NCBI GenBank assembly: GCA_902363445.1 | Contig: CABJAB010000004.1 | Span: 248,001-312,000, forward strand | DNA length: 64,000 nucleotides | Reading direction: 5' to 3' | Origin: Lachnospiraceae bacterium | GTDB lineage: Bacteria > Bacillota > Clostridia > Lachnospirales > Lachnospiraceae | Shown here: positions 7,194 through 41,727 of the stretch, piece by piece | Numbering within the stretch: the first letter of the stretch is position 1 | How the letters are laid out: the number at the start of each line of letters is the position of its first letter | Notes under the pieces: generated by a model | Told to the model about the DNA's origin: nothing | Databases searched by the model: none | The model's input: the letters and a program-made list of their open reading frames with translations, nothing else | Made by a program: the position numbers and the translations under genes

Positions 7194-7472
7194 TCACACA
7201 GTGTTCTGCCTGCGGTAAAGGAACAGCCTTATCAGTCTGCCGCTGTAATGTACATCCACGCAGATGATCGTCTGCCTTCCGTTATCATCCGTCCGTATCT
7301 GGATAATATCCGTTTGAGTCTCTTTCAGATATCCGTCCAGCTCCTCCCATTTTTTACGGATTATTTTTGACCTCTCAGGAATTACGATCACATATTCCGG
7401 AGGCTTTGCAAAATGATAGACCCCACGGCCTGCCAGCATATCAAAAAGCGTAACTAAATCAATTGTTTTCAC
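7194..7472 (-). CDS. Small unknown protein under the element's operator
   Basis: About 92 aa, beginning M-K-T-I-D-L-V-T-L-F if the GTG at 7472 is used (AAGGGG lies 8 bases upstream); an earlier GTG at 7481 lies within that ribosome binding site. No family recognised. It is rich in charged residues, with no membrane segment. A copy of the ATTCCTGA operator motif (7501-7508) sits about 30 bases upstream, so it is probably controlled by the neighbouring repressor-like gene and belongs to the phage-derived element. Confidence 0.6.
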   Translation of the reverse strand: MKTIDLVTLFDMLAGRGVYHFAKPPEYVIVIPERSKIIRKKWEELDGYLKETQTDIIQIRTDDNGRQTIICVDVHYSGRLIRLFLYRRQNTV

Positions 7473-7500
7473 AATACCCACCCCTTCTGCGCCTTTATTC

Positions 7501-7508
7501 TCAGGAAT
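7501..7508 (-). promoter_or_regulatory. Operator-like motif, copy 1
   Basis: Minus-strand context GCGTCATTCCTGAGAAT, almost the same as copy 4 (ACGTCATTCCTGAGATT). It precedes the small gene ending at 7194. One of four copies found only around the repressor-like gene. Confidence 0.55.
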
Positions 7509-7530
7509 GACGCATAATTATCTTATGTTT

Positions 7531-7555
7531 ATACCCCTTTACAGATAAGGGGTAT
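7531..7555. repeat. Perfect 9-bp inverted repeat at the repressor gene's 3' end
   Basis: ATACCCCTT and AAGGGGTAT are separated by seven bases and overlap the stop of the MrpR-like gene. No T-run follows on the minus strand, so it is a weak terminator at best; a protein-binding site is also possible. Confidence 0.5.
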
Positions 7556-8495
7556 ATTCTTGATATCGATATTTGAAAATTGAAAAACTTATATTCATCT
7601 GCAGTCTGTCGAAAATCGTCTGATACCGGTTCACCGTATCCTCATCTATTCTGGACCGCTCCAGATCTTCTTTGATCCGATACCCGGCCTTTTTTGCCTC
7701 CCGTACTACCAGGTTAAATCTGCCTGACGTAAAAAGGCTGCTGTAGTTCAGTGCTTCATCTCCCGTCACTTCTTTTATCCGTTTAAAGGAATTCCGAAAA
7801 TTCCGGATCATTCCTTCTTCGCTGTCCTTCTTAGAACGGCTCTTCCAGACGGACTCCGGAAGAAATGAATATTTAAGGCGGACCAGTCTTTTATTCCCCA
7901 CATATTCTTCCAGCTTGTAACAGCTGAGAAGCGCCCTGGCCAGCCTGCCGCTGATATTTTTGCAGGTTCCGTCTGCCAATGAAACGCGGTAGCCGTCTCC
8001 TTCTTCTATAATATCATCCTTTTGAAGATAAACCAGATTTTCAAAACACTTCCCGGCTATCCCTTCATAGACAGACATCAGGATGGGAAGGTCATTCACA
8101 CCGGCGCCGGAATGCCTGACCAACTCCACATACTCCTCATATCTTTCATCGGAAATATAATACCTGGTCTTGTAGGATTCCATTTTGGACAAGAGGTAAT
8201 CATTGGGGCACAGGCTTTTTCCCAGATAATTCATCTGGCAGTATCCCTTTACCTGACACCATTCCAAATATCGGGACAGCCTGTATTTTTCTCCAAGCAG
8301 CGTCTTCTGATTGTCATAATTCGTTATGAGGAAATGGATCAGCTCCTCTCCATCCATGGCGCACAGATCCTTCCCCTTCGCTTCTTCATAAGGCTCTGTC
8401 TTATGAAAAAGATTTTTCAGTCGCATATATGTGGCATCCTGGAAATTGCTTCTGTAGAAGTCCAGAAATTCTTCCTTCTGCTTATCGTTAAACAT
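7539..8495 (-). CDS. MrpR-like repressor with degenerate tyrosine-recombinase fold
   Basis: 318 aa, close in size to MrpR (YopR), the master lysogeny repressor of phage SPbeta, which is built like a tyrosine recombinase but has no catalytic activity. The C-terminal half has the recombinase-like order, but the H-x-L-R-H box position reads S-L-F-T-S-G-R-F-N and the Arg-Lys-His-Arg-His-Tyr set is not intact, so recombination is unlikely. It is transcribed divergently from a YonO-like polymerase operon, and four ATTCCTGA-type motifs flank its control region, as expected for a repressor with dispersed operators. The identification rests on fold pattern, size and context rather than a search. Start ATG 8495 has only a weak ribosome site. 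Confidence 0.62.
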   Translation of the reverse strand: MFNDKQKEEFLDFYRSNFQDATYMRLKNLFHKTEPYEEAKGKDLCAMDGEELIHFLITNYDNQKTLLGEKYRLSRYLEWCQVKGYCQMNYLGKSLCPNDYLLSKMESYKTRYYISDERYEEYVELVRHSGAGVNDLPILMSVYEGIAGKCFENLVYLQKDDIIEEGDGYRVSLADGTCKNISGRLARALLSCYKLEEYVGNKRLVRLKYSFLPESVWKSRSKKDSEEGMIRNFRNSFKRIKEVTGDEALNYSSLFTSGRFNLVVREAKKAGYRIKEDLERSRIDEDTVNRYQTIFDRLQMNISFSIFKYRYQEYTPYL

Positions 8496-8567: not shown

Positions 8568-8596
8568 ATCATAGCACGACGGCAGTTCTATGTCAA
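8568..8596 (-). promoter_or_regulatory. Promoter of the MrpR-like gene
   Basis: Minus-strand TTGACA (8591-8596), 17-base spacer, TATGAT (8568-8573), about 75 bases upstream of the start codon. Operator copy 2 ends just upstream of the -35, suggesting autoregulation. Confidence 0.8.
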
Positions 8597-8604
8597 GTAT
8601 TTTA

Positions 8605-8622
8605 TCAGGAATAACGTATAAT
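8605..8622 (-). promoter_or_regulatory. Operator-like motif, copy 2
   Basis: Minus-strand ATTATACGTTATTCCTGA, eight bases upstream of the -35 of the repressor-like gene. Shares the ACGTYATTCCTGA core with copies 1 and 4. Confidence 0.6.
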
Positions 8623-8910
8623 AAAGATCTCAAAAACACACCTACAGCCTATCCATTCATTTTTCAAAGTACTTTCCCTTAAGGAATACAGGCTTTTCCG
8701 TTCCTGTTATATAAATTATACCGTATTAGTCGTTCTTCCTGTACCCATATCGAACTTATGTTCGCTCCGTGTCTTCTGTCTAATATAAACGGCACCTTGC
8801 CCGACGGCAGTCACACTTCGAGTATCAAGGTATCACCGGAATACATTGATGTCAATAAATTGTCGAAAAGTGGTAGGAATAAGGGACATAATTATTATTT
8901 CAGATTTTAT
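8623..8910. other. Central part of the divergent control region, no gene seen
   Basis: The whole 8496-9078 gap holds no convincing gene; its open frames (for example from 8758) lack ribosome sites and coding character. It contains the two divergent promoters and operator copies 2-4. Within this central part a degenerate relative of the motif (CGTTCTTCCTGTA, near 8731) is visible. An AT-rich regulatory spacer is the best description. Confidence 0.6.
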
Positions 8911-8931: not shown

Positions 8932-8960
8932 TTGACGTATAGTTTAAATAATGATATGCT
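8932..8960 (+). promoter_or_regulatory. Rightward promoter of the phage-derived operon
   Basis: TTGACG (8932-8937), 17-base spacer, TATGCT (8955-8960). It is flanked by operator copy 3 upstream and copy 4 in the transcribed leader, so it should be repressed by the divergent repressor and served by host sigma-A polymerase, producing the YonO-like enzyme first. Confidence 0.72.
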
Positions 8961-9000
8961 CTTATTTATCATACCTTTTATTTTTTTCACTTTATACGTC

Positions 9001-9008
9001 ATTCCTGA
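9001..9008 (+). promoter_or_regulatory. Operator-like motif, copy 4
   Basis: Context ATACGTCATTCCTGAGATTA, about 40 bases downstream of the rightward -10. Nearly the same as copy 1 on the other side of the repressor gene. Confidence 0.6.
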
Positions 9009-9078
9009 GATTATATCTCGCTATTGACCAGAGGTTAAAAGGTACATTGATGACAAACAGAAAGGAGGCATGTTTTAC

Positions 9079-9432
9079 GTGACGGTTTCAGATGATAACG
9101 AACGGCGGTGGGTACATATGCTCTCTACAGCGGGAAAGCCCTCTCCCAGCTTAACTGACGCCCAGTGGCAGCCGGCGTTTCAATTTTTAAGATCTCATAT
9201 CTTCTCATCAGAAATTTTGCCCTGCCAGAACACTGAATACCAAAGCTACTGGGTTTTTATAGAAGATACCCTTTCTTGGATACGCCGCGGTCATACTGCA
9301 TATGTATTTTTCACTTATCAGATATATGACCTGCTGCTTTTTGAACGAGACCGATTGTCCACTCGTTTGATCCGCGATGGTGGAATCCATCCGTATTTTA
9401 TGGTTTGGCTCCAAAAGGAAAGGAGGAAATAA
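9079..9432 (+). CDS. Small unknown protein upstream of the polymerase (YonP position)
   Basis: About 117 aa. AGGAGG at 9063-9068 is only one base from ATG 9070 but 10 bases from GTG 9079, so GTG is the likely start (V-T-V-S-D-D-N-E-R). Aromatic-rich, no membrane segment, no family recognised. It is the first gene of the rightward operon and ends three bases before the polymerase start. SPbeta also has a small gene (yonP) just before yonO; whether they are homologous cannot be judged here. Confidence 0.65.
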   Translation: MTVSDDNERRWVHMLSTAGKPSPSLTDAQWQPAFQFLRSHIFSSEILPCQNTEYQSYWVFIEDTLSWIRRGHTAYVFFTYQIYDLLLFERDRLSTRLIRDGGIHPYFMVWLQKERRK

Positions 9433-9435
9433 GAC

Positions 9436-12162
9436 TTGCTCGACACACAGATCAGCCTTTATTCCGTCGACACCGGAGATTTCTACAGCAATACAGAAGC
9501 ATACCTGCACCGTATGAACTGCCGTTACCGTCAGGAAAGGAATTTTGCCGCCTTAAAGCTTTCCCAATATGAGGAGCTTCTCTCAGGATACGGATACGAT
9601 TCTGAGGATCTAAAGAATCTCCGGGCCGGAAATATCAGCAAAATGAAGCTCCTGCCAGGTACTTCCCATCTGTTATATGAATATCTGAATTGGAACTGCC
9701 GGATTGTCCACAAGAGAAAAAAAGCAAAAGAATCCAAAGAAAAGCTGCTTCTGCTCTTGTCAAATAAGGTACTACAGAACGAGCGCACCCATGGGCGGGA
9801 CCACATCCGGAGTATACGGGAAGGCAGCCTGAATGACAGCAGCGTCATATCATTGTTCGATTCCTCCCTGACCCGCATGATGGGGATCAAAATGGGGGAA
9901 TTGACCGACGACATGATGGTAGTCCAGGTATATTACTTTTCCATTTTTAAAGATATCTCGTATTTCGGCTTCCTCCATCACGGTGAAAAATATCGTTACT
10001 ACACTTCTTCCGCAGGACAGATCCGCAAGAAAAAGGCCGTCTTTATAAAAGAATCCGCCTGGAACCGCTATGAAAAGACGATCATGTGCGGCCTGACCAT
10101 CGACAAGATAAATTCAAAGGGCGGAAACAATGTCAACAAGCATCTGGCTTATATGGCCCTCTCCAATTCTGCTACAGACTGCTGGGATGATTTCGACATT
10201 GAAAAGACCGTCGTCATTGACGATTTTGAGACGCCGGTATCCGGTATTTTAGATTTCATTGATGATGAAACTTATTCCATCACCAGGAGAAACGATACGG
10301 TCAGCATTACCCACACAGACGGAGCCGGGATGATGCTTCCTTCCATACTGGACCGCAATGTCATGTTCCGGGCTCCATGGATAAAAGGGCTGCTCTGTGT
10401 ATTTGATTTCCGGTCTTTTATAGAAGAAAAGGGATACTCTCCTATTGTCCGGGATATCTATGGGCAGGAACACGATCTGATATCCGAGGATATCCAGATC
10501 ATCTTTACCCGAAGCCAGTTCAAAATGCACCGATACTACAGCTCCTGGGAAGAATACATAGGTTTCTATAAGCAGTATGGCTGTACCGCCGGGCTCTGCA
10601 ACCCGGAAGAAAAACATATTAAGGATGCAAAGATCAACTATCAGATGCTCCAGACTCTCACGGATATCTCACCGGATGAGGTCTGTCTTCTGGCGTCAAA
10701 ATCCGTGGATAAGCTAAATCATATGTGCTCCTCCGTCGAGAGCCTCATGAAGATATTCGGTGTCACTCCTTATAACAGCCACATGACCAGTCTGCAGAAC
10801 GCCGTAAAATTGTATCCTGCCCTGCTGGACGATCCATACCTGAAATCCATAGTCCGGGGCATGAAAGACCGGATGGTCCGGGAATATAAATCCGGCCGCC
10901 TGGAGATCGACGGCAAATACACCTTCATCCTCCCGGACCTTTATGCCGCGTGTGAGCACTGGTTCGGCCATGTGGACCGGCCCGCAGGCCTTTTGGATGA
11001 CGGGGAAGTATATTGCCGGCTGTATCCCAGGGCTGAAAAATTGGATTGTCTGAGAAGTCCACATCTATACAGAGAGCATGCCGTCCGATACAATGCCGCT
11101 GCCAGAGCGCCCTCTTCCAAAAAGCTGCTTTTAAAAAAATGGTTTGTCACCAATGGCCTGTATACCAGCTCCTGGGATCTGATCAGCAGGCTCCTCCAGT
11201 TCGACGTGGATGGAGACAAAGCGCTCGTAGCTGCCGACGAGTATCTCGTCCCCGTCGCCGAGCGGAATATGAAAGGGGTCGTCCCTCTTTACTACAATAT
11301 GAAAAAAGCCGCTCCATGTCTTCTAAGTCAGGAAAGCATCTATCAGGGGCTGAATGCGGCATTTACCGGAGGAAATATCGGCATATACAGCAATAACATA
11401 ACAAAGGTCTGGAATCATGAGGTCTTTCTCTCTGGAACCGAGCAAGAAAAACAGGACGCCGTGGACACGGTCAAGCTTCTCTGTATGGAAAATAATTTCG
11501 TCATCGATTACGCGAAAACTTTGTACAAGCCTAAACGTCCAAATGAAAAGAACCAACTGATAAAAGCCTATACACAGGCGAAGCTGCCCGCGTTCTTTCT
11601 CTATGCCAAGGACAAAACAGAGGATCAGGCAGCCGCCTGCAACGGAAGCCTTGTAAACCGGCTCCGAGATCTCATCCCAAATCCCAGACTGAATTTCCGA
11701 AAAGCCGGGATCCCCAAACTGGATTACCGCAGGCTCATGACAGACCCGGAAATAGAAATCGATCCGAAAGTAACGGCACTATATACGAAATTAAACCAGC
11801 AGTACCATTTCAAGATCAATATGCAGGATGAGTACATCCATAACCTGGAATACCTGGCCCGGGATATGCGAAATCAGCTGAGCGGCTTCGGCCACACGGA
11901 TCAAGAGCTGTCCGATATGCTGGTAAAATATCTGTACGGTAAAGAATCCAAGTCCAAAGAAGCCCTCTGGTTTTGTTACGGCTCTTATATCCTGGAAAAT
12001 CTAAAGCGGAACCAGAATCCGGGAAACACAAAGCTCATCCAATGTATGGACTGCGGCGAATGGTTTGAAGCCGGTATCCGTTCCAAGAGCTGCCGCTGTG
12101 AATCCTGCCGAAAAGAATACCGGAAAGCCTGGGACCGGGAACGAAAAAAGAAACGGTCATGA
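9436..12162 (+). CDS. yonO: YonO-like single-chain DNA-dependent RNA polymerase
   Basis: 908 aa, almost the length of SPbeta YonO (about 905 aa), a one-polypeptide relative of the two-barrel RNA polymerases and of eukaryotic QDE-1. The hallmark DxDGD catalytic motif is present as D-V-D-G-D at residues 590-594, inside L-L-Q-F-D-V-D-G-D-K-A-L-V, followed by the basic segment expected of the second barrel. The start is TTG 9436 with AGGAGG nine bases upstream. The C-terminus carries C870-x2-C873 and C886-x-C888-x2-C891, a zinc-ribbon-like cluster followed by a basic tail. In SPbeta YonO transcribes late genes; here the tail genes lie downstream on the same strand. No multi-subunit polymerase domains beyond this are seen. 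Confidence 0.82.
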   Translation: MLDTQISLYSVDTGDFYSNTEAYLHRMNCRYRQERNFAALKLSQYEELLSGYGYDSEDLKNLRAGNISKMKLLPGTSHLLYEYLNWNCRIVHKRKKAKESKEKLLLLLSNKVLQNERTHGRDHIRSIREGSLNDSSVISLFDSSLTRMMGIKMGELTDDMMVVQVYYFSIFKDISYFGFLHHGEKYRYYTSSAGQIRKKKAVFIKESAWNRYEKTIMCGLTIDKINSKGGNNVNKHLAYMALSNSATDCWDDFDIEKTVVIDDFETPVSGILDFIDDETYSITRRNDTVSITHTDGAGMMLPSILDRNVMFRAPWIKGLLCVFDFRSFIEEKGYSPIVRDIYGQEHDLISEDIQIIFTRSQFKMHRYYSSWEEYIGFYKQYGCTAGLCNPEEKHIKDAKINYQMLQTLTDISPDEVCLLASKSVDKLNHMCSSVESLMKIFGVTPYNSHMTSLQNAVKLYPALLDDPYLKSIVRGMKDRMVREYKSGRLEIDGKYTFILPDLYAACEHWFGHVDRPAGLLDDGEVYCRLYPRAEKLDCLRSPHLYREHAVRYNAAARAPSSKKLLLKKWFVTNGLYTSSWDLISRLLQFDVDGDKALVAADEYLVPVAERNMKGVVPLYYNMKKAAPCLLSQESIYQGLNAAFTGGNIGIYSNNITKVWNHEVFLSGTEQEKQDAVDTVKLLCMENNFVIDYAKTLYKPKRPNEKNQLIKAYTQAKLPAFFLYAKDKTEDQAAACNGSLVNRLRDLIPNPRLNFRKAGIPKLDYRRLMTDPEIEIDPKVTALYTKLNQQYHFKINMQDEYIHNLEYLARDMRNQLSGFGHTDQELSDMLVKYLYGKESKSKEALWFCYGSYILENLKRNQNPGNTKLIQCMDCGEWFEAGIRSKSCRCESCRKEYRKAWDRERKKKRS

Positions 12163-12266
12163 TTCCACTCTTCTTCCTCAGATAAAATCGGCCGACGTCT
12201 TCGTCCTCTTATAAATAAACGAAAAGAAAAACATCCGTAACTCTCGGATTTTATTATGGCCTCTAC

Positions 12267-12294
12267 TATGGAAGCACATCCCTGCGCTTCCATA
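12267..12294 (+). promoter_or_regulatory. Inverted repeat in the polymerase-HU gap
   Basis: TATGGAAGC and GCTTCCATA form a perfect 9-bp stem, bracketed further by GGCC on both sides, with no T-run. The 167-base gap between the polymerase and the HU-like gene is one place where a promoter recognised by the YonO-like enzyme could lie. Function unknown. Confidence 0.4.
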
Positions 12295-12329
12295 AGCGGC
12301 CTGAATCAATATTTTATGACAGGCGGTGA

Positions 12330-12674
12330 ATGAAATTGACCATAACACAAGAAATACTGATCCGCCGTATAGCGGAAACGGAACACAGAGATATCGCAAC
12401 TGTCCGGAGCATCTTTGACTCTATGGAACAGTTGGTGGTGGAATATTTATCTTCCGCACACCCGCAGCAGGATATGACTCTTAAGCTATTTAAGGGCCTG
12501 AGCCTGGAATGTACCTATATTCCTTCGAAGGAAATTAACAAGGGTATGTTTCAGAGCCTCAAAAGCTCTCCGAAAATCAAAGCAAAGGCGTCCGTCAGCC
12601 GGTATTTTAACCAGAAGCTGAATAAACTCGCCAAATTTGATGATCTCCCTGTTTCCGGTAAAAACGGCAAATAA
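12330..12674 (+). CDS. HU/DNABII-like DNA-binding protein (YonN position)
   Basis: 114 aa. The N-terminal helices (I-R-R-I-A-E-T-E-H-R-D-I-A-T-V-R-S-I-F-D-S-M) and the following L-K-L-F-K-G-L-S-L-E-C-T-Y-I-P segment match the helix-turn-strand layout of phage HU-like proteins that bend or coat DNA. GGCGGTG is one base from ATG 12330 and seven from an in-frame TTG (12336), so TTG may be the real start. It directly follows the YonO-like gene, the same order as yonO-yonN in SPbeta, where yonN encodes an HU relative. Confidence 0.66.
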   Translation: MKLTITQEILIRRIAETEHRDIATVRSIFDSMEQLVVEYLSSAHPQQDMTLKLFKGLSLECTYIPSKEINKGMFQSLKSSPKIKAKASVSRYFNQKLNKLAKFDDLPVSGKNGK

Positions 12675-12885: not shown

Positions 12886-13161
12886 ATGGATTTGACATTT
12901 ATCACTGATATGTATATCCCGCTCGTGCTGCTTGCATGTCTGGTTATCGGATACATTCTGAAAAAATGGATACAAGACGTGGACAACAAATGGATCCCGA
13001 CTATCCTCTGCATCATCGGAGCTGTCTTGGCATGTACGGTCAGCCGGACGATCAGTCTTTCTGTCATCGTTGCTGGCGCAGTGAGCGGTCTGGCTTCCAC
13101 CGGCCTTCATCAAATGTTTAAGCAGCTGATTGAAAACGGTCCTGCAAATGGAGGTGTCTGA
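12886..13161 (+). CDS. Phage holin, Hol44-like
   Basis: 91 aa with two or three hydrophobic segments (about 10-22, 35-50, 52-70) and a polar C-terminus, the pattern of Hol44 (holin superfamily V) proteins. Holins form membrane holes that release endolysin and particles. AAGGAGA lies six bases before ATG 12886. Its position, far upstream of the endolysin (40123) at the head of the tail genes, is unusual, since lysis genes are normally adjacent. Confidence 0.72.
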   Translation: MDLTFITDMYIPLVLLACLVIGYILKKWIQDVDNKWIPTILCIIGAVLACTVSRTISLSVIVAGAVSGLASTGLHQMFKQLIENGPANGGV

Positions 13162-13162
13162 T

Positions 13163-13657
13163 ATGACTTTGAATGAAATCAGCCTCTATAAAGATAAAAT
13201 CCTGTCCGGGATCTTCCAGTCAGAGGAGATTGCCGGTTACCTGTTGGGTGACAGCTACCATGCCGAAACAGCAAAAGAGGATCTAAATTACATCCATGTA
13301 TTTCCCTACCTTCACATCCCGGACCCCGCCGCAGAAGCGAAGCCATACTTATGTGTGGAGGTAGATATCCCTCGGACGCTAAATCTCGTATATAAGGATA
13401 TGAAGGTCATGGTCTGGGCTTACTGCCCACAAAACATCATGGACCGCGCCGGAAAAGACCGGGCCGCCACACTTCCGGATTTGATCGCCGATGCGGCGGA
13501 CACCCTTTTAAACGGTTCCGGAGAGTTTAGGATCGGTAAACTCAAGCTGGAATCCGTTTCCTATTTTACCCCATCAGAAGGGTTTTACGGGAAACAGCTG
13601 ATCTATAAATGTCTTGAATTCGATACATGGAAAACAGATCAGGCGGTGATCGCTTGA
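13163..13657 (+). CDS. Unknown tail-module protein, possibly a tail terminator
   Basis: About 164 aa from ATG 13163, preceded by GGAGG; the earlier ATG at 13130 lies inside the holin gene. Mixed alpha/beta with a central strand-rich segment (Y-L-C-V-E-V-D-I-P). No recognisable domain. Its place just before the tail tube gene is where siphophages encode tail completion or terminator proteins, so such a role is a guess from order. It overlaps the next gene by four bases. Confidence 0.6.
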   Translation: MTLNEISLYKDKILSGIFQSEEIAGYLLGDSYHAETAKEDLNYIHVFPYLHIPDPAAEAKPYLCVEVDIPRTLNLVYKDMKVMVWAYCPQNIMDRAGKDRAATLPDLIADAADTLLNGSGEFRIGKLKLESVSYFTPSEGFYGKQLIYKCLEFDTWKTDQAVIA

Positions 13658-14445
13658 ACAAGACAGATCTGGAGCACCGGCTTCTAAGAGGAAGTGAACT
13701 CTTTTTTGAAAATCATCCGATATATAAGATTTCCCTGGGGGAAATGGTGGATTTCGGATATTCAAAAGCCCAGAGCATTCTGGGTATCTTATGTATGAAT
13801 GATGAAAAAACCGAAAAATTTCTTCCGGAAAACGTTCCGCCGTCCACTTATCTGATGGTGGCATACAACTTGTTCCGAGAACAAAAGCAAATGGAGACTG
13901 GTATTGTTTCAGAGGATACCCGGGAATCTTCCCTTTGTATTTCTGTCCCGGCTTTTCTGGAACTTCTTTTTCATAAACATGTTGTTTTTCATTTAGATTC
14001 CGGCTTCACCATTGGCAATAAACCAGATGATTCTTTCATCCTGGCAAATCACAATTACGGTAGTTTTCGTGAAATCATCCGGGAGCGGTTCTGTTTGACC
14101 GACTCCGAAACACTGGACGAGGAAAATCCCGCCGACGCTAGGACAAAATCCCTGCTGGAAAGGCGAAAAAAATTAAGAGAGAAAGTCAATCGATTGAAAT
14201 CCAATCTGGGAGATGACGAGAATGAAGGCCTTACGATGGCGGATCTTATCAGTATCTTCGCGGAAGCGGAGCATCTTCCTCTCCAGGATGTCTATGATAA
14301 ATATGACATCTATCAATTCAATGATCAGTTTAACCGGTTGAGGATAATGGATGATTATCACGTAAATATACAAGCTTTGCTGGCCGGCGCAAAGAGCGAA
14401 GAGCTTCACATGCAGCACTGGCTCACAAAAATCAAGAGACCATAA
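13654..14445 (+). CDS. Unknown 263-aa protein of the tail module
   Basis: Start is TTG 13654, which overlaps the previous stop (TTGA) and has GGCGGTG five bases upstream; an ATG at 13627 would be inside the previous gene. Helix-rich with a charged stretch around R-R-K-K-L-R-E-K-V. No family recognised. Position before the tail tube suggests a structural or assembly role. A 52-base gap holding a short hairpin (AAGGCCGG ... CCGGCCT) separates it from the tail tube. Confidence 0.6.
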   Translation: MNKTDLEHRLLRGSELFFENHPIYKISLGEMVDFGYSKAQSILGILCMNDEKTEKFLPENVPPSTYLMVAYNLFREQKQMETGIVSEDTRESSLCISVPAFLELLFHKHVVFHLDSGFTIGNKPDDSFILANHNYGSFREIIRERFCLTDSETLDEENPADARTKSLLERRKKLREKVNRLKSNLGDDENEGLTMADLISIFAEAEHLPLQDVYDKYDIYQFNDQFNRLRIMDDYHVNIQALLAGAKSEELHMQHWLTKIKRP

Positions 14446-15714: not shown

Positions 15715-15802
15715 CGCTCCTCTTCTTTCCTCTCACTTCTTTCTGAAATGAATGATAAACTGGACAACACCGGAATATCTTATAGTAATGGAGGTAAGAA
15801 AA

Positions 15803-16048: not shown

Positions 16049-16212
16049 AAATCACGCCTAAAAAAATACCCTATTAATATATAACGGTTCTCACACCCCC
16101 TTTATTACAGCCGTCTCTTCAAAAAGTCGTACCCAATTCATACAGCTTTCTATGCTAATATTAGTTAAAATAAATTATATATGTCTTTTTAACTATCTTT
16201 TTATATCTTCTC

Positions 16213-16260: not shown

Positions 16261-16339
16261 TGTGGTAAACCTCACATATCTAGGTCTATCTTCTTATATT
16301 TTCGCTATCAAGCGTGGTTAAAATCGTGGTAAATACTTT

Positions 16340-32809: not shown

Positions 32810-34978
32810 ATGTCAGCTCTGGAAAAAAAATCCTCGGCCATGTCCGCCATAGCCCGAAGCATCGACATCAAAAACAACTTTACACGGGAGCAGATGCTTA
32901 AGCTGAATCTTTTCATCCGGGAAGATGAATATTCGGACAGTTGTTTTGCATTCACGGACAATGACACCAACGAGGAAAAAAATGAAACGGAAAAAGAACT
33001 GTATGAAGCCGCAAAGAAGGAACTGGCCAGAATTTCACAGCCGCAGCTCTCCTTCTCTCTCTCCATGGCAAATATATATGCCATAGATGAATTCCGGCCT
33101 CTGGCAAACATGTTCCGGACCGGAAACTTTATCACCGTAGGAATCCGGGATGATTATTTCGTACATGCCAGGCTGCTGGAAATTTCGGTAAACTATGATG
33201 AACCTGACGATTTCTCTGTCACATTTGGAAATATTTATAAGTCGAAGAATCCTGTCGACATCCACTCTGAACTATTAAAACAGACCTCTTCTGTCTCACA
33301 CCAGGTCGCCAATTCCAGCTCCTTTTGGCAAAAATCCTCTAAAGTCGCCAATGACACGATGCAGATAATAAAAAACGGGCTGGGAACAGCTGTAGAACAG
33401 ATTAGGATGAGTGACAATCAGGATGTGACTTATGACAGATACGGCATCCATCTCCGGAAAAAGGCCGACGGCAGCACATCCTTATCTGATTTGACTGCCG
33501 ACGGATATTATAAAAAACAGGCATGGATCACAAATGAAAAATTCATGTACACATCCGACGGATGGGTTACCGCAAAATCCGCATTCGGGACCCTTGTTCA
33601 TAACGGGCAGACCGTTTATGGTCTGATCGCGGACATTGTTCTGGCTGGAATCGTCCAGGGAAGTGAAATAACCGGCGGCAGCATAACCGGCACCACCATT
33701 AACAATGGAAACGGGACTTTTAAAGTCACGGAAGCCGGAAAGCTGACCGCATCCGGCGTCGATGTCCAGGGAAATATAAAGGCCACTTCAGGTTATATCG
33801 GGAATGGAACCAGCGGATTCACCATAAACAGTACTTCCATTTACAATGGCTTGTCTTCCCTGTCAGGAACGTCAAGCGGAATTTACATCGGCACTGACGG
33901 CATATCCCTCGGCGGTGGTAAATTCAAGGTCACAAAACTTGGAAAATTGTCTGCCGCAGATGCTGTCATTGAGGGAAATATAAATGCCGTCACTGGATAT
34001 ATCGGAAGCAAAACCAGTGGTTTCACCATAAACAGTGCTTCTATTTACAATGGACTGTCTTCCCTGTCGGGAACGTCAAACGGCATTTACATCGGCACCG
34101 ACGGCATATCCCTCGGCGGCGGTAAATTCAAGGTCACAAAATTGGGAAAGCTGTCCGCGACCGGCGCCGACATTCAAGGAACCGTCAATGCTACCTCCGG
34201 AACTTTTAACGGTACCGTCAATGCTACCTCCGGAACCTTCAATACCGTGACAATCAATGGGAGCACATGGACCGGCGGTAATGTAAATTCTGCATCCGTC
34301 AATTCGCCAACCATGTCCGGGGGAAGCTACTCCAATGGTAATATGTATGGCTGTACAATCCCAACAAATGACGTTTTGCATATTGGGGATGTAGGCTATC
34401 TAACTTACTTAAACACCGGAAGCGTAGTTGTCAGAGCCGGGGGAATAGGTGATATAAGTCTCAGAGGCTCTGGAGGCACTGGCACCGCGGTAACAATTAC
34501 AGGAGGTAGTTTAAGTGTAATTGGAAATCTTATAGTAACAGGATCCCTCCTTGCCGAAGGTGATTTTAAGCAAAGAGTCATAAAGACAAAAAGTTATGGA
34601 AAGCGCGGGCTAAACGCCTACGAAACACCACTTCCAACTTTCTCCGACTATGGCAAAGGAAAAATTGCCGCTGATGGCTTCTGTTTTATTGAAATTGATC
34701 CAGTGTTTTCTGAAACTGTCGTGCTGTCACACAAGCCTGTAGTATTTCTCACAAAATACGGGCAGGGCGATGTGTGGGTTGACGACGATAAAAGTACGAA
34801 TACCGTCATTGTTGTATCAGGAACGCCCGGGCTGTCATTTGCTTGGGAAACACGTTATTTACAGACAAAAGCTTCAAATGAACGCCTGATTACTCCGAAT
34901 GAACCGGCCGGTTCATTTGACTATGAAAATGAAGCATATGAATATCTTCTCGATTACGAAAGGAAATTACGATCATGA
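32810..34978 (+). pseudogene. Tal baseplate protein, C-terminal part with repeat domain
   Basis: 722 aa from ATG 32810, in the same frame as the part before the TAA. It begins inside a coiled coil, continues with strand-rich tail-tip domains, then a Gly/Ser/Thr-rich section with two 68-residue repeats and short G-T-V-N-A-T-S-G-T-F-N repeats, and a C-terminal knob. Such long Tal extensions often carry receptor-binding or peptidoglycan-acting functions. No good ribosome site precedes ATG 32810 (only AGAAG), so it would need readthrough or re-initiation. It overlaps the next gene by four bases (ATGA). Confidence 0.72.
33769..34176 (+). repeat. Two 204-bp tandem repeats within the Tal gene
   Basis: GGGAAATATAAA recurs at 33769 and 33973, and the following DNA is mostly the same, encoding G-F-T-I-N-S-x-S-I-Y-N-G-L-S-S-L-S-G-T-S in both units. 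Differences are largely third-base changes, so both copies are under protein-level selection. Confidence 0.85.
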
Positions 34979-35315: not shown

Positions 35316-36644
35316 GTGAACATATCAAAATCTGTACAGCTTGATCTAAAAAAGAATACGGATAAAATCATAGATATTTTTAAACAATGGGATAAAAATT
35401 CCAGGACAATTGAATTTGAGATTATTCAGGATGGGGAAAAAGTATCCATCAATCCTGAAAACTGCAGAGTGGTCATCGCCATGAAAAAGCCGGACGGCAG
35501 TCAGATTTTAAATGATTGTACCATATCCAATAACAGAATTCATGTGGCATTTACAGAGCAAATGCTCGCGTCAGATGGAATCGGCTATGGGGAGCTTCGT
35601 ATATATGATACAGTTTCTGAAACTCTGTGTATTACCTCAACATTTAAACTGCGTATCAATAAAAGTGTAATCGACGATTGTTTGATTCAAAGTACCTATG
35701 AGTATAACGCACTCACAAATATCATTTTACGTAACGAGAAATCCGTTCAAAAAGCGGAGGAGGCGACTGCCGCCGCTTTTTCTTCCGCTGAGAATGCCAA
35801 CCGGGTTAACGCCGCCATAACATCAACGGAACAAATAAGAGTTGAGGCTGAAAATCAGAGAAATCATGCGGAGGACAATCGTAAAGACGCGGAATCCGGC
35901 AGAATAACGGAAGAAAATAAGCGTGTAACCGCAGAAGCAAACAGGACGGAAGTATTTAATAATAAAATCACAGAGGTCAACGGTAAAATCATACAAACTG
36001 AAACTGCAGCGGAACGAGCAAAGACAGCCGCCCAGGGAGCTCAGAACATCACATCACAAGTCCAGCAAAAATTAGAAAATGGAGACTTTATCGGGGCAAC
36101 TGGTCCGCAAGGTCCAAAAGGAGATATGGGTGCCACGGGAGCAACCGGGGCACAAGGCGCGAAGGGCGATAAAGGGGATAACGGGTCTCAGGGACCAAAA
36201 GGGGACAAGGGCGATACCGGCGCCACAGGAGCAGCGGGTGCTGCGGGCGCTGCCGGAGCACCCGGACAAAAAGGGGATGCCGGACCGCAGGGTCCAAAAG
36301 GAGACAAAGGCGATACCGGCGCCACAGGAGCAGCGGGTGCTGTTGGGCCGCAAGGATCCAAGGGAGACACCGGGGCGCGGGGTCCAAAAGGCCATACCGG
36401 GGCAACCGGCGCTGCTGGTGCGACCGGCGCTGCTGGTGCACAGGGCATTCAAGGGGAAAAGGGCGACAAAGGGGAAAAGGGCGACAAAGGGGACAGCGGC
36501 ATAACAGTCCCTATAGGTGGATTTTTCACTCTATATGTTGATGGAAGCGGAGCTCTTTATGCATGTTCATCTGATGACAGCACAGTCCCAGATTTTGAGT
36601 TTGATAACAGTACAGGCAATCTATATTTTATAACGGAGGTATGA
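35316..36644 (+). CDS. BppU-type baseplate upper protein with collagen-like stalk
   Basis: 442 aa from GTG 35316 (AGGAAGGTG upstream). Residues 1-125 match the BppU N-terminal beta domain that attaches fibres to the baseplate; 140-245 are a coiled coil of A-E-A-N-R/A-E-D-N-R type; about 255-395 are G-x-y collagen repeats rich in G-P-K-G-D and G-A-T-G; the last 45 aa form a small globular end. Likely anchors and extends receptor-binding fibres. The next gene's ATG follows with GGAGG seven bases upstream. Confidence 0.85.
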
Positions 36645-36645: not shown

Positions 36646-38121
36646 ATGGCGACGACAAAAACGTTAATTGGGAATATCAAGGGTCCTAAAGGCGATAAAG
36701 GGGATATGGGAGCAACTGGGGTACAAGGTCCTGTTGGACCTCAGGGAAAGACCGGAGCAACTGGCGCCGCCGGCCCGCAAGGTACACAGGGTCCAAAAGG
36801 AGATACTGGAACTCAGGGCCCTAAAGGCGATAAAGGAGATACTGGCGCTGCCGGCGCGACCGGCGCTGCTGGTCAGAGAGGAAGCCGTTGGTCCCAAGGA
36901 TCAGCTATTACTGGGACAAATACGACGGCCGCTGTTTTTACTGGTACTGGAATCGCGGATGCACTGATCAATGACAATTACTTGAACACCAGCACCGGCA
37001 ATACGTATCGCTGCACAGTAGCCGGAGCAGCTTCTGTAGCCAAATGGGTATATACAGGCTGTATCAGAGGCGTCACGGGTCCGACAGGTCCACAGGGTGC
37101 CACCGGCGCAACTGGTGCAACCGGGCCGCAGGGAGCCGTTGGTCCAAAAGGCGATACTGGTAAGCAGGGCGCTAAAGGTGATACCGGAGCAACTGGCGCA
37201 ACTGGTCCACAGGGGCAGCGCGGGAGCCGTTGGTCCCAGGGAACAGCCATTACTGGGACGAATACTACAGCAGCTGTGTTTTCTGGCTCAGGTATCACAG
37301 ATGCGCTTGTAAACGACAACTACCTGAATATATCCACCGGAAACACTTATAGATGCACAGTGGCAGGGAACGCATCAACAGCTAAATGGGCCTACAGCGG
37401 ATGTATTAAAGGGGTCGCAGGTGCAACCGGTCCGCAGGGCCCTCAAGGAGAACCTGGGCCTTCCGGAGAAATCACTGCCGGGTCTGTACTTAATTTCACA
37501 CCCTCCAAAACTTTTGAATTGCCGAAAAGCGGCGAATCTGTTGGGATAATCATTGGTAAAACTGTTGGAGATTTAAGCGACCTTGATACTCGTCTCAAAA
37601 ACACCGCGGAATCCATGGGAAATGGTGTATACACGTCAGACGATACAGTAGAAGGCTCCACCTTTGAGACTCGGTTAGATGCGGATACATTGGGAGGGCA
37701 ACTACCTGGGTATTATACAAAGCAGGCAGATATTGGGAATGTTTCAAACCTTACGACTAATGCAAAAACATTGGTTGGAGCAGCCAATGAACTGAATAAA
37801 AAGGTAGAATTTACGGTACGCAATTCTTATACGGAACAGGATACTTTTTTCTTTCAGAATTCCTACATTCTGGGAAATGAAGTTGTCATACAATTTGAGG
37901 TTTTATCAACAGTAGGGCTTCCGAGCAACACAAACCTGTTCCGAATATCAGATAGCGCTGCATATCCTAAAAAAGTCCAGAAAATACCGGCGTTTTGCAG
38001 GGTGGGAGCGGATGGCGCGGGAGCGGTTGTGTGTGCGGAAATTACAACGGACGGATACATAAAACAAAACCAAAGCACTAATCCGACAATGATCACAGTA
38101 TTTGGTAGTTATCTTATATAA
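36646..38121 (+). CDS. Collagen-like tail fibre protein with duplicated module
   Basis: 491 aa. Three collagen-like G-x-y blocks alternate with two copies of a module of about 67 aa that begins [10 protein letters not shown] and contains [11 protein letters not shown]-terminal part of about 200 aa has the [18 protein letters not shown] linker common in fibres and a beta-rich tip. Probably a fibre or fibre adaptor recognising the target cell surface. The repeats make the gene prone to recombination. Confidence 0.8.
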
Positions 38122-38136: not shown

Positions 38137-38952
38137 ATGTCAATTATAACTGGAGTAATTAAAACCCTGACATCTAAATTTGGAGTGACACTGCCGGTTA
38201 CCGTGACAAAGGCCGTGTACGATGAAACAACAGGCGAAAAACTGGATGCCACTATATCCGAGATAAAAAATGAGATTGGAGAGGTCTCCACTCTCACAAC
38301 TACTGCCAAAACGATGGCGGGAGCTGTCAATGAACTGGACGCTGATATGTCCAAACACCTAATGCAGTCCTTTATAAGTCCAGAACACTTAGGGCTTGAA
38401 AGAAACGGTTGTACCTTAATCGACTTGTTTAATGCCCTTCCGTATTTTGGAATTTTATCTTATTGGATTGGAACAAATTCTGCACAAATTCAATCAGAGA
38501 TAGCGGCACAGATAGGACGAAATGCCACGGACGTATTTGGAATACTGACTGTGACAAAAACAGAGAATTTAGCTGGAAATTATACTTTTTATGAATACGG
38601 CGAAACACCGAACTTGACCTATACTGCGTCCTATGACTTGGTGAATGGGACAACCACCTGGAAAAACTTTCGAAGAAACGCAACAGCCGAATATGCGGAC
38701 AGTCTTCAGGATATGACTTTAGTAGATAAGGGAATTGTGACGGATACCCTAATGGATTCCATAGAAAAGGGATTTTACTATTATGGAGAAAATACGATTG
38801 GGGCACCAAGCAGTGATGCCGGTGTCATATTATCGCTCCCAGCTGGTGAAGCATATACGATGCGAATAGCCTTAACAGCAGGACATCAAATGTATATCAA
38901 CGTACATGTATCAGGAATAACATACGGAGATTGGAGACCAATAACCGCATAG
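38137..38952 (+). CDS. Tail fibre or receptor-binding protein
   Basis: 271 aa, AAGGAG upstream of the ATG. The first 75 aa hold the same fibre linker type (T-T-T-A-K-T-M-A-G-A-V-N-E-L) as the previous gene; the rest is beta-rich and ends with Y-G-D-W-R-P-I, typical of fibre tips. No chaperone domain is visible. Confidence 0.7.
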   Translation: MSIITGVIKTLTSKFGVTLPVTVTKAVYDETTGEKLDATISEIKNEIGEVSTLTTTAKTMAGAVNELDADMSKHLMQSFISPEHLGLERNGCTLIDLFNALPYFGILSYWIGTNSAQIQSEIAAQIGRNATDVFGILTVTKTENLAGNYTFYEYGETPNLTYTASYDLVNGTTTWKNFRRNATAEYADSLQDMTLVDKGIVTDTLMDSIEKGFYYYGENTIGAPSSDAGVILSLPAGEAYTMRIALTAGHQMYINVHVSGITYGDWRPITA

Positions 38953-39019: not shown

Positions 39020-40087
39020 ATGTTAAATACAAATTCAACAGTATCTCAATCATCCATTTTAACAGTAGGAAAGAACGCGTCACTCTACGATTTTACTACA
39101 GTAAATGCCGCTGTCACCCATGCCAGGCAGTATTGCAGCAAAGCTAATCGTGTCGTCGTTAAAATCGCATCCGGCACCTATAACGAACAGGTGGATTTAT
39201 GCAACAATCCAGGCATTGATTTAATTGGGGAGGGCATGGATACGACAATACTCTCATATCCCAGTACTTATCCCAACGCGCCGATCTATACCACCGGACA
39301 GGGATATTTCAGCGGACTCACCTTTTTGGCCACTTCAGGAAGCAATTCCTATGGCCTCCACTATGAAAATGGAAGTACCAAGATTTCAGGGACAACCGTT
39401 TTCCGGAACTGTAAATTTTCCTCTCCCCACAATGCGATTGGATGCGGCTTAGGCGCCAATTCTACTCTGTCCCTTTATAATTGTGTCCTTCAGGGAACTG
39501 GCGGAGGCGCTCCTTTATATCTGCATAATGCAGCATATGCCAACTCCCCGAATCAGGTTTTCGAAATGTTTGATTGTGTGTTATACGGCAAGAATTCCTC
39601 TTCCAATGAGTCGGTCCTGATTGACGACGCCGCTAAATTTTACGGAGTTTCCAACAGTACTGCTCAGCTTCGATTTTCCAACAATCGGATGATCAGCAGC
39701 ACAAAAGTCATTTTCCGGGAATCGGAAACTACCCGCTATCCATATATTCCTGTTTCTAATAAGAACATAACCTTGAATCCTTCCAATACCGGAAATACCA
39801 CCCGGGCATTAAATTATAACGAAGGCTGGAAAAACGGACAGGCTTATGTAATCAAATCTGAGCAGACCGTATACAACGCCAACTATTACTTATATTCTGT
39901 CCCCATGGAAAATGCAGACAAATATAACATTACATTGACGGCAGTGAACATTCCCGGTTTAGCCAGTATTCTTTCAGACTGCAGCATCCATTCCACCAGC
40001 GCTAATGGATTTGTTATCAAAGATACAAATCCCAATGGGACTAACTTTGGCATGGAGATAGCATATACAGCATCACTCAAAGGGTAA
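39020..40087 (+). CDS. Beta-helix tailspike-like protein (pectate-lyase/pectinesterase fold)
   Basis: 355 aa with AGGAGG nine bases before ATG. The start resembles pectinesterase-type beta-helix proteins (D-F-T-T-V-N-A-A-V, then V-V-V-K-I-A-S-G-T-Y-N-E-Q-V, L-I-G-E-G-M-D-T-T-I-L). The repeated short strands with N and G turns continue to about residue 250. In phage tails such proteins bind or cut cell-surface polysaccharide. No certain catalytic Asp pair can be assigned by eye, so enzymatic activity is open. Confidence 0.78.
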   Translation: MLNTNSTVSQSSILTVGKNASLYDFTTVNAAVTHARQYCSKANRVVVKIASGTYNEQVDLCNNPGIDLIGEGMDTTILSYPSTYPNAPIYTTGQGYFSGLTFLATSGSNSYGLHYENGSTKISGTTVFRNCKFSSPHNAIGCGLGANSTLSLYNCVLQGTGGGAPLYLHNAAYANSPNQVFEMFDCVLYGKNSSSNESVLIDDAAKFYGVSNSTAQLRFSNNRMISSTKVIFRESETTRYPYIPVSNKNITLNPSNTGNTTRALNYNEGWKNGQAYVIKSEQTVYNANYYLYSVPMENADKYNITLTAVNIPGLASILSDCSIHSTSANGFVIKDTNPNGTNFGMEIAYTASLKG

Positions 40088-40122
40088 TAATCCCGCCAAT
40101 TTTTATAATTTAGGAGGAATCT

Positions 40123-41166
40123 ATGGCAAATACACTCCAAACTTACTGTACCAAAAATGACTGCTATAAAGAAGGAACGCCCCTCTCGGGCGTTTCTTTT
40201 TTGATCGTCCACTCTCCCGCCGTCTATCCCGTCATCATCCGGGCGCAGTCCGGAGCGGGAGGCGGCTGGTTCAAGCGCTGGAACAAGCCGGGAGTGGAAA
40301 AGCTGGTCCACGGCTTCATCGACGACACCGGAATTTATGAGTTCGCTCCGCCCGCTATGTCCTGCTGGCACATAGGAAACGGATGGGGAAACGCCCATTG
40401 CATCGGCTACGAATTATGTGAGCTGGAAACAGCAGCGGAATTCCGGAAGGTCTGGGCAAATGCCGTCTCTCACTATGCCGGACTATGCAAGCGCTTTAAC
40501 CTGGATACCGGCCAGATTCTCGGCCACTATGAGGCTTATAAAAAAGGAATTGCTTCGAACCACAGCGATCCGGAACCATATTTTCGCCGCTTTGGCAAAA
40601 GCATGTCCGATTTTCGGACTGAGGTAAAGGAAATGATGTCCGAAGGGGCATCCTCCTCCCCTGATTCCTCTCCGGATATGCCGCTTCCCACGATTACAGA
40701 AGTCTATGAACCTTGGGCTTATGCGAAAATATGTAACCTGACAAAATCAGACCCGTATCTAAATGTCCGTACTGGTCCCGGCACATCCTATCAAATTATA
40801 CGCCGGCTGGGCAATGGAAATGAAGTGGATGTAGCCGCACTTTATACCAACGGCTGGGCAAAAATAAATATTGTAGGACAAGAGGGATTCGTGTATTCTG
40901 GATATCTTCGGATATCCGTCAGGCAAGCAGACCATTCCGCCGTTCAGTCTGGCACCGTGTGGGTTGGAAAAGTCACCGGAACCGGCGGCGCAGGCTTAAA
41001 CGTCCGTACCGGTCCCGGTACATCCTTTGAAAAACTGAGTGCCTGGCCCAAGCTGGGTGATGGAAACCTGGTTGATATTTTAGGAGAATCCGGCGGCTGG
41101 TATCAGACAAAAATCGCCGGCAAATATACGGGCTGGGTATCAAAAGATTATATTCGGAGGGCGTAA
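40123..41166 (+). CDS. Endolysin: N-acetylmuramoyl-L-alanine amidase with two SH3b domains
   Basis: 347 aa. Residues 1-170 are an Amidase_2/PGRP-type domain (F-L-I-V-H-S, E-F-A-P-P, W-H-I-G-N-G-W-G-N, G-H-Y-E-A, H-S-D-P-E; His/His/Asp zinc set plausible). Two SH3b wall-binding domains follow, each with L-N-V-R-T-G-P-G-T-S (about 212-270 and 285-346). It cuts the amide bond between MurNAc and the stem peptide for particle release. AGGAGGA is five bases before the ATG. A terminator-like hairpin lies 50 bases into the gene. Confidence 0.92.
   Translation: MANTLQTYCTKNDCYKEGTPLSGVSFLIVHSPAVYPVIIRAQSGAGGGWFKRWNKPGVEKLVHGFIDDTGIYEFAPPAMSCWHIGNGWGNAHCIGYELCELETAAEFRKVWANAVSHYAGLCKRFNLDTGQILGHYEAYKKGIASNHSDPEPYFRRFGKSMSDFRTEVKEMMSEGASSSPDSSPDMPLPTITEVYEPWAYAKICNLTKSDPYLNVRTGPGTSYQIIRRLGNGNEVDVAALYTNGWAKINIVGQEGFVYSGYLRISVRQADHSAVQSGTVWVGKVTGTGGAGLNVRTGPGTSFEKLSAWPKLGDGNLVDILGESGGWYQTKIAGKYTGWVSKDYIRRA
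40174..40202 (+). terminator. Terminator-like hairpin inside the endolysin gene
   Basis: GGAACGCCC and GGGCGTTTC form a 9-bp stem (one G-T pair) with a 5-base loop, followed immediately by six Ts, at codons 18-27 of the endolysin. By structure it is a regular intrinsic terminator. Confidence 0.6.
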
Positions 41167-41199
41167 GCCCTCCTTTATGAAAGGAATGGTGCTCTTTGA

Positions 41200-41727
41200 A
41201 TGTCGTATATCACGGCTTTAATCGATAACGGAATCACACATACTGTCATTCTGCTCTTCGCTCTCCTGTTTGCCGTCCAGGAAATTCTGAAACTGGCGGA
41301 CTGGACAGCCGGGCGGTTCGGAATAGAAACTAAGTGGTCCCTAAAAGAAAAATCGCAGGCTCAGATGCTGATCGAACATGATAAGATGCTGACAAGTATA
41401 TCTGCGGGCCTTCAAAAGACCAACGAAGAAATCAACTGCCTTACATCCAGAATGAAGGAATTAAGAGAACTGATCGAAAAAAACGATCATGAAAACCGGC
41501 TGTTCCATCTGGATATCCAAAGGAAAAACGATGCCAATAAACGGGCGGAGCTGAAAGACCGGATTGGTCAGTCATACCGGTATTATCACACTCTCAAGGA
41601 ATGGAACCGGATGGAAAAAGAAGCGTTTTACGACCTGGTGAAAGATTATGAGCTTCACGGAGGAGAAAACAGCTTCGTACACGAAAAATGTGTTCCGGAA
41701 TCCTACACCTGGGAACTGACCGACTAA
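41200..41727 (+). CDS. Membrane-anchored coiled-coil protein, last gene of the tail operon
   Basis: 175 aa: one N-terminal membrane segment (about 12-28), then charged helices and a coiled coil (about 60-115), and an acidic aromatic C-terminus. It directly follows the endolysin, so it may be a lysis accessory (holin-like or spanin-like anchor), but no family is recognised. GAAAGGA lies upstream of ATG. The operon ends here, before ssrA on the other strand. Confidence 0.65.
   Translation: MSYITALIDNGITHTVILLFALLFAVQEILKLADWTAGRFGIETKWSLKEKSQAQMLIEHDKMLTSISAGLQKTNEEINCLTSRMKELRELIEKNDHENRLFHLDIQRKNDANKRAELKDRIGQSYRYYHTLKEWNRMEKEAFYDLVKDYELHGGENSFVHEKCVPESYTWELTD

Follow-up and report, generated by a model that had tools for sequence, protein, structure and literature searches.

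Monocins, the F-type tailocins of Listeria, and F-type pyocins are transcribed by the host RNA polymerase. The late operon of SPbeta, in contrast, is transcribed by YonO, an RNA polymerase (RNAP) that, according to the paper describing it, starts behind its own gene, upstream of yonK (PMC5467207). The same paper describes the YonO line as split from multi-subunit RNA polymerases before the last universal common ancestor, places YonO-like proteins in the chromosomes of many firmicutes with the guess that they serve specific genes under stress, and leaves open, as of 2017, both the YonO promoter sequence and the role of the many chromosomal relatives (PMC5467207). SPbeta is also the source of the repressor MrpR, which, as reported, binds a repeated element, SPBRE (PMC10516654).

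Here, a stretch of 64,000 nucleotides from a Lachnospiraceae genome (contig CABJAB010000004.1; "the window" in the following) was analyzed. At 7.2-41.7 kb, between recA/tRNA-Gln and tmRNA/RNase R, it carries a gene cluster with an MrpR-like repressor and a YonO-like RNAP, all the components of a non-contractile tail, and a holin and an amidase for lysis. Families of terminases, portals, or capsids were not matched among 22 (Pfam) or 20 (PHROGs) cluster open reading frames (ORFs) of at least 90 aa, with the PHROG matches of two fibre ORFs considered being the best 25 of 52 and the best 25 of 48 families. The cluster is a chromosomal siphophage-type tail module with its own YonO-like RNAP and without detected head genes, and it probably acts as an F-type tailocin that is inducible by the SOS response and relies on this RNAP for the predicted transcription of its tail and lysis genes. 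If so, it would, to our knowledge, be the first tailocin with its own RNA polymerase. No description of such a system was present among the literature matches listed for YonO, tailocins and tail-like particles, tape-measure introns, and MrpR/SPBRE, a search outside of which preprints and most subscription papers lay.

Compared with monocins and F-type pyocins, the cluster adds the dedicated YonO-like RNAP, and many of its relatives add a sigma-like plus GmrSD-like gene pair. It resembles the late operon of SPbeta in the RNAP (45% identical to YonO over 85%, with the DxDGD motif present), in the order RNAP, HU position, late genes, in a tube belonging to a family with solved phage tail tubes, and in the MrpR-type repressor. 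In SPbeta, however, the terminase gene yonF lies ∼5.3 kb behind yonN, whereas no terminase was found in the cluster of the window, where the tube gene is at most ∼3 kb behind that of the RNAP. Diffocins (R-type; Clostridioides difficile) are contractile, whereas no sheath family was matched in the window cluster by Pfam and PHROG scans. The chromosomal YonO-like RNAPs mentioned in PMC5467207 are the same kind of protein, here with a context, namely, head-less tail clusters and SOS-type boxes. Should the tailocin reading be true, it would say what chromosomal YonO-like proteins do, and a common gut family would carry tailocins with their own RNA polymerase. As the chromosomal YonO-like RNAPs of Lachnospiraceae are tied to head-less tail clusters, and as there are now candidates for the promoter and for an SOS switch, both questions left open in 2017 become testable.

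The tail cluster of the window

The genes of the cluster are given below (L numbers denote loci of relatives and c numbers ORF families, see the following section); its regulatory sites and the tape-measure region are given further below.

9070..9432, plus strand: small ORF ahead of the RNAP; five of the loci L001-L095 have a homologue (30-35%) in this place
9436..12162, plus strand: YonO-like single-chain RNAP (phrog_8308, 7.6e-247; catalytic-type DVDGD at residue 590)
12330..12674, plus strand: gene in the HU (yonN) position (family c2, in 37/49 genome loci)
12886..13161, plus strand: holin, Phage_holin_5_2 (PF16079, 1.1e-17)
13130..13657, plus strand: tail terminator (AlphaFold2 model, pLDDT 81.8, fold matches)
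13627..14445, plus strand: conserved tail-cluster protein (phrog_4051)
14498..15307, plus strand: tail tube protein (phrog_2729; family profile against the solved tail tube 8k98, 4e-18)
15475..15714, plus strand: small ORF 3′ of the tube, in the same place in L048 and L052
23952..24614, plus strand: tail chaperone by position only, no family match
30807..31625, plus strand: distal tail protein (Dit), assigned from its position and its tail domains, DUF6558 (PF20195/PF20753)
31625..32788, plus strand: first piece of Tal, ended by an in-frame TAA (phrog_6211; PF06605 just under cut-off)
32810..34978, plus strand: second piece of Tal, frame unchanged (phrog_6616, phrog_6211)
35316..36644, plus strand: BppU-like baseplate protein with collagen repeats (PF10651, PF01391)
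36646..38121, plus strand: collagen-repeat tail fibre (Pfam)
38137..38952, plus strand: probable fibre or tip protein (phrog_10153, 2.8e-4)
39020..40087, plus strand: pectin-lyase-like candidate fibre/depolymerase (PF01095, 9.4e-7; no PHROG match)
40123..41166, plus strand: endolysin, an amidase with SH3 domains (PF01510, PF08239)
41200..41727, plus strand: conserved protein of tail-only clusters, family c10 (in 23/49 genome loci; 161 bits)

The F-type tail set of the window is complete—terminator, tube, tape measure, Dit, Tal (split), and fibres—and is accompanied by its own holin and amidase. The modeled fold of the terminator matched T5 p142, lambda gpU, the collars of pyocin R2 and diffocin, and the monocin cap. 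The PHROG of the tube protein is named "virion structural protein" and belongs to the category "head and packaging", yet the family matches solved tail tubes. For the protein encoded at 13627-14445, there was no fold match in the PDB, and its viral matches at E <0.001 were uncharacterised or unnamed proteins. Neither the RNAP nor the repressor had a match in a library of defence systems, and what a search of solved structures returned for the RNAP profile and for the repressor was meaningless.

The gene content that the original prediction had assigned from the letters alone was borne out by Pfam, PHROGs, and the ORF list, with two qualifications. The gene at 12330-12674, taken for HU-like, does hold the corresponding position, but matched neither a Pfam nor a PHROG family, and a profile of its relatives matched SPbeta yonN weakly (E 6e-4). 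Likewise, the supposed chaperone at 23952-24614 sits where a chaperone should be, but no family was matched. Head genes nearby, which had been named as a finding that would refute the prediction, were looked for, and no head family was found in the scanned ORFs of the cluster.

The cluster is flanked by core chromosome on both sides: spoIIM, rny, recA, and tRNA-Gln on the left, and tmRNA, RNase R, enolase, and pheT on the right. Searching 6900-7600 and 41500-42200, each separately, for att-like ends or direct repeats yielded short internal repeats only. The integrase and the Rep of the window are both within a Tn916-type insert (see below), and among the scanned ORFs there was no integrase or replication gene of the cluster's own. 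In its descent, the cluster stands near the SPbeta-type phages; as no head gene was found, we do not classify it as a prophage.

Tail-only and phage-type relatives

Scanning with an alignment of the RNAP retrieved 49 loci from a species-genome collection and 46 from viral contigs (L001-L095), which were classed after ORF calling, clustering, and profile search. Those in which the RNAP is followed by at least one of the families c3-c7 were called phage-type; those in which it is followed by at least one of tube, c10, c11, c19, or TMPn (the N-terminal part of the tape measure), and by none of c3-c7, were called tail-only. The two kinds never overlapped in the stretch analyzed: besides the window, 34 of the 49 genome loci were tail-only, nine were phage-type, six were undecided, and none was both, whereas 43 of the 46 viral loci were phage-type and three were left unclassed. 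Family c4 matches Terminase_6 just under cut-off. The tube family used here (A3) merges quite unlike tube types (14-62% to that of the window), and tube counts cover all of them. A family-wide search, yielding 33 matching genomes, added 20 further loci, all 20 of which were tail-only by the same local test, with RNAPs down to ∼25% identity; a few were without a recognised tube and were classed by other families. Tail-only relatives, the lack of which would have refuted the original prediction, are thus abundant. RNAPs at 21-36% identity also occur in tail clusters (G031, G356, G332, G195, and others), a deep diversity within one bacterial family.

In relatives whose stretch was extended, the tape measure is followed by further collinear ORFs and then by ORFs mostly on the opposite strand, which we take for host genes. 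Of the 165 unassigned ORFs in these stretches and in loci L146-L165, 48 were scanned, namely, ORFs of 200-1100 aa from the extended relatives, one 211-aa end fragment being excluded. Pfam matched mainly tail and lysis families, with no head family among the best 25 of 26; the best 25 of 105 PHROGs comprised tail proteins, endolysins, and one integrase. A few host types (MCPsignal, Radical_SAM) were also encountered which, together with the integrase, indicates that the runs extended into neighbouring genes. A weak head-type profile match in L149 (14.4 bits) concerns an ORF with a better match to c13.

Co-occurrence was quantified in 397 genomes of the family to which G001 belongs (Faecalicatena contorta, the genome with locus L087). 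The RNAP was found in 33 and the tube in 39 of them, and both in 26, where ∼3 would be expected if they were independent. After second fragments had been dropped, 34 of 40 RNAP rows were kept for measuring distances: 21 of these 34 places had the tube on the same strand 1.3-4.3 kb downstream, three had it 17-21 kb away, and at 10 it was not found on the contig. A divergent c1 gene (weak GmrSD_N match) was located 1.2-3.0 kb upstream at 14 of the 34.

In five species (L055, L056, L060, L066, and L077), the cluster sits beside the same flanking families, including the sigma factor c35. In these five and in the pair L062/L078, the ratio of nonsynonymous to synonymous substitution rates (dN/dS) was 0.06-0.23 for RNAP, c1, c10, lysozyme, amidase, and TMPn; that of the tube was 0.03 in L062/L078. 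Values of up to 0.30 for HU and of 0.63 for c19 came from pairs with hardly any silent change (dS 0.016 for the c19 pair). "c47", with dN/dS >1, was judged to be an antisense ORF over the tube gene, because tblastn places the tube there, and was dropped. In the tested pairs, purifying selection thus acts on the cluster genes.

A tree of 90 RNAP rows (49 tail and 37 phage) required nine changes of label, eight of them forced by well supported branches, versus 27.6 in shuffled data, a rough count as this is a quick tree with long branches. The context is thus clustered on the tree but has switched repeatedly, and an exchange of RNAPs between phages and tail clusters is likely. In the phage-type loci L088, L093, L020, L024, L031, and L046, the RNAP genes are spread over 0.5-1.5 kb of extra DNA, some with an ORF of family c99, reminiscent of introns or inteins. 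An aminotransferase-V (cysteine-desulfurase-like) gene, c28, lies within the tail cluster of L051, L058, L065, L072, L079, L090, and L094.

Candidate promoter, predicted operators, and SOS-type boxes

The regulatory genes and sites of the window, most of the sites being predictions, are as follows.

7194..7481, minus strand: small ORF behind the repressor (ORF list; no Pfam match)
7375..7386, plus strand: predicted repressor operator TCAGGAATTACG, one of four exact matches in 64 kb
7500..7518, plus strand: predicted repressor operator (19-mer, at most three mismatches)
7539..8495, minus strand: MrpR-like repressor of tyrosine-recombinase fold, SPbeta type (PF22822, 1.9e-15; phrog_5830)
8568..8596, minus strand: predicted sigma-70-type repressor promoter, TTGACA-17-TATGAT (consensus scan, 11/12)
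8604..8622, plus strand: predicted repressor operator at the repressor promoter (repeat pattern)
8751..8764, strand not assigned: LexA (SOS)-type box CGAACTTATGTTCG, the only match in 64 kb (0.03 expected)
8932..8960, plus strand: predicted promoter for host transcription of the RNAP operon, TTGACG-17-TATGCT, with TG ahead of the second hexamer (consensus scan, 9/12)
8991..9009, minus strand: predicted repressor operator, directly following the promoter of the RNAP operon (repeat pattern)
12163..12329, plus strand: post-RNAP spacer, site of the candidate RNAP promoter in relatives; no scoring copy in the window

The spacers behind the RNAP genes share the element TGTGYGTATAAGGGAA, which scored at least 15 bits in 33 of 45 spacers (858 bits in total versus 509-528 for shuffled spacers) and which is often preceded, as judged by eye, by two palindromic boxes. 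With a threshold of 16 bits, a scan of the 1.78 Mb made up by L001-L095 and the window gave 41 matches, compared with four in shuffled sequence, and 34 of the 41 were situated 24-195 nt behind the RNAP. The element is also present in phage-type loci (L050, L054, L063, and others) and therefore goes with the RNAP rather than with the tail. It is a candidate for the promoter that this RNAP would recognise. In SPbeta and Perkons, the post-RNAP profile found no good score; by eye, and unscored, a CATAAGGGAGA-like string is found behind yonO, and TTAAGGGAGT is found in Perkons. In the window, a string near 12260 resembles TGTGYGTATAAGGGAA by eye with one extra base.

The LexA-type box CGAACTTATGTTCG of the window sits between the predicted promoters of the repressor and of the RNAP operon. 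The shape of the box is one we take from LexA of B. subtilis and clostridia, and the presence of GAACATCCGTTC just ahead of the start of recA in the window supports it as an SOS box of this host. Within 1.5 kb before the RNAP, GAACN4GTTC was present in 38 of 52 tail-only loci (26/32 in the first set and 12/20 in the second, where 0.5 and 0.4 loci would be expected), versus one of 47 phage-type loci (1/9 and 0/38) and 2/6 and 0/3 of the unclassed. Loci with <300 bases upstream were left out of this count, so that 32 of the 34 tail-only loci and 38 of the 43 viral loci of phage type entered it. The boxes are often paired; with one arm relaxed, 18 of the 23 spacings below 60 bp in the first set were 32-33 bp. 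We read this pattern as pointing to direct SOS control that was gained, or kept, by the tail-only kind. That such boxes mark the tail-only kind strengthens the tailocin reading already offered by the original prediction. In the window, the interval from the LexA-type box to the RNAP gene also contains a small ORF (8758-9027) with a membrane-like C-terminus, a possible but unsupported antirepressor.

The N-terminal core-binding domain of the window repressor scored 57.7 bits with PF22822 (cut-off, 27). The pattern TCAGGAATNACG has four exact copies in 64 kb, all within 7375-9008, where the repressor gene and the beginning of the RNAP operon are located, and with two mismatches it is ∼1.7x as frequent as in shuffles (31 versus 18.5). 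Its 19-mer operator form, with at most three mismatches, gave three matches in the window, with 0.01 expected. The repeats fit a repressor binding a repeated element, by analogy with MrpR and SPBRE. The SPbeta-type repressor named in the original prediction was seen in the window only: no homologue was found by tblastn in L001-L095, and a search among phages matched a single Bacillus phage, present in two records (32% over 59%). Many relatives have in its place two divergent genes, one with weak sigma-like and one with weak GmrSD-like matches, which are possibly the usual regulator of such clusters. In L078 (7204-9167), for instance, this c1 pair consists of a protein of ∼185 aa with a weak match to sigma-70 region 2 and one of ∼460 aa of the GmrSD_N/NsnA type; the two are sometimes fused, and the c1 relative of L062 matches NsnA in the defence library (5e-15).

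Alternative readings and the interrupted tape measure

Several points weigh against regarding the cluster as a tailocin. The classing uses our own labels (metallophosphoesterase for c3, portal for c6, and head for c5 and c7, going by look, order, and size), and for the 49 genome loci it covers ∼10 kb beside the RNAP, so distant head genes are possible. One of the 48 scanned ORFs of relatives matched an integrase family, and the context of the RNAP changed eight to nine times in the tree, meaning that RNAP and tail module are not strictly co-inherited. As to regulation, the window is without a scoring TGTGYGTATAAGGGAA element (the best, at another place, had 10.6 bits), the operator patterns were composed after the copies had been seen, promoter-like sites near the repressor are not enriched (12 versus 10.1 in shuffles), and 14 of the 52 tail-only loci are without a full LexA-type box, the expectations being from mononucleotide shuffles only. 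In the window itself, an element of ∼8 kb separates the tube and tape measure genes, and Tal is split by an in-frame TAA at 32786-32788, behind which the frame continues. The split may be an error of sequencing, a knock-out of recent date, or real, with a product in two pieces. The stop, which the original prediction had taken as a sign of possible damage, is present, and that doubt stands: the working state of this copy is questionable, and it may be impaired. The ORFs for RNAP, tube, terminator, Dit, and lysis are all open.

Part of this evidence would also suit an SPbeta-like prophage that has lost its head genes by chance, is decaying, and is now inert: its RNAP, HU-position gene, and MrpR-like repressor are all SPbeta-type, Tal carries a stop, a mobile element lies inside the cluster, and there is no further copy of the repressor in L001-L095. 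We consider decay unlikely, given the same head-less order in dozens of genomes with RNAPs down to ∼25% identity, purifying selection in the tested pairs, and the LexA-type boxes marking the tail-only kind. Quite unlikely, too, is a tail-based device that delivers a protein payload, or donates tails to the heads of a helper phage or satellite, instead of being a self-sufficient killer. The cargo-like c28 in seven genome loci and the zinc-ribbon proteins c13 in the tape-measure region would agree with such a function, as would the restriction of the head-gene scan to cluster stretches; most clusters, however, are without c28, and a terminator cap and lysis genes belong to the cluster itself, as they would in a tailocin.

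That the chromosomal RNAP serves other host genes and adjoins tail genes incidentally would be in line with the guess of stress-specific genes found in PMC5467207. It is very improbable in view of the 21 of 34 RNAP places that have a tube on the same strand no more than 4.3 kb downstream, and of 34 of the 41 matches of the post-RNAP element in L001-L095 falling 24-195 nt behind the RNAP, ahead of the next genes.

If, as appears probable, the cluster is an inducible F-type tailocin, its operation might be envisaged as follows. In the uninduced cell, LexA and a repressor (MrpR-like in the window; the sigma-like plus GmrSD-like pair in many relatives) would hold the host-type promoter ahead of the RNAP. 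DNA damage would free this promoter, upon which the host RNA polymerase would make the YonO-like RNAP. The latter would then start just behind its own gene and read terminator, tube, tape measure, Dit, Tal, fibre, and lysis genes. Tails capped by the terminator would assemble without a head, holin and amidase would lyse the producer, and the released tails would bind and kill relatives with a surface fitting the fibres. A wider proposition is put forward more tentatively: Lachnospiraceae might hold an old family of LexA-governed F-type tailocins with a dedicated RNAP of the YonO line that has passed to or from phages on several occasions, with one cognate promoter, TGTGYGTATAAGGGAA, behind the RNAP gene, and with a tape-measure message that needs splicing; this could be the purpose of most chromosomal YonO-like RNAPs in that bacterial family, a possibility we currently hold to be rather doubtful.

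In the window, the mobile element lies ahead of the tape-measure gene, and an intron-like insertion lies within that gene.

15752..23950, ends approximate: mobile element with Tn916-type integrase, rolling-circle Rep, and ABC transporter (Pfam), inserted into the tail cluster but foreign to it
24662..25390, plus strand: N-terminal part of the tape measure, by position only (TMPn of relatives is at the same place)
25310..25800, plus strand: intron-like insertion in the tape-measure gene, ends by eye (with GACUA at 25619 and UAGUC at 25672-25677 as strands resembling P7 of group I introns)
26134..30762, plus strand: main part of the tape measure (phrog_4211, 6.4e-13; frame open from ∼25.8 kb)

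The tape-measure frame of the window breaks near 25.3 kb and resumes near 25.8 kb. In 24 loci picked for their split appearance, TMPn was present as an ORF in 21, ending at 382-581 aa near a similar spot, and was followed by stretches, many with antisense zinc-ribbon ORFs, and then by the remainder of the gene. As the split recurs at about the same place in relatives, it is not a sign of decay specific to the window copy. An uninterrupted ORF runs through the insertion spot in L151 (2968 aa) and L154 (2212 aa), the alignment having been inspected for L151. Rfam intron families were matched neither in the window stretch nor in L161, L148, or L056, and not at gathering score in L049, L052, L057, L058, L065, or L078. 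The P7-like strands suggest group I introns, and we grade the insertion as intron-like, no more. There appear to be several unlike subclasses of insertion at about this spot (window, L056, L161, L159, L078, and others).

The antisense zinc-ribbon proteins of family c13 in the tape-measure region (L052, L165, L149, L065, and others) have a similar C-terminal ribbon and varying N-terminal parts and come singly or in tandem, with 11 such ORFs in the L165 stretch. Weak matches of 24662-25390 and of one c13 protein in the defence library were set aside. L148 contains two TwoAYGGAY RNAs (8-173 and 16105-16272), one of them between TMPn and TMPc.

Within the mobile element of the window, the Tn916-type integrase (Phage_integrase family) is encoded at 16340-17533 and Rep at 17815-18825, along with helix-turn-helix and ABC transporter genes. 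A direct-repeat search for its exact ends gave nothing convincing, and the tail ORFs on either side are both open. Outside the cluster, a T-box leader was noticed at 51422-51652 on the minus strand of the window, upstream of the gene at 50338-51477 beside pheT.

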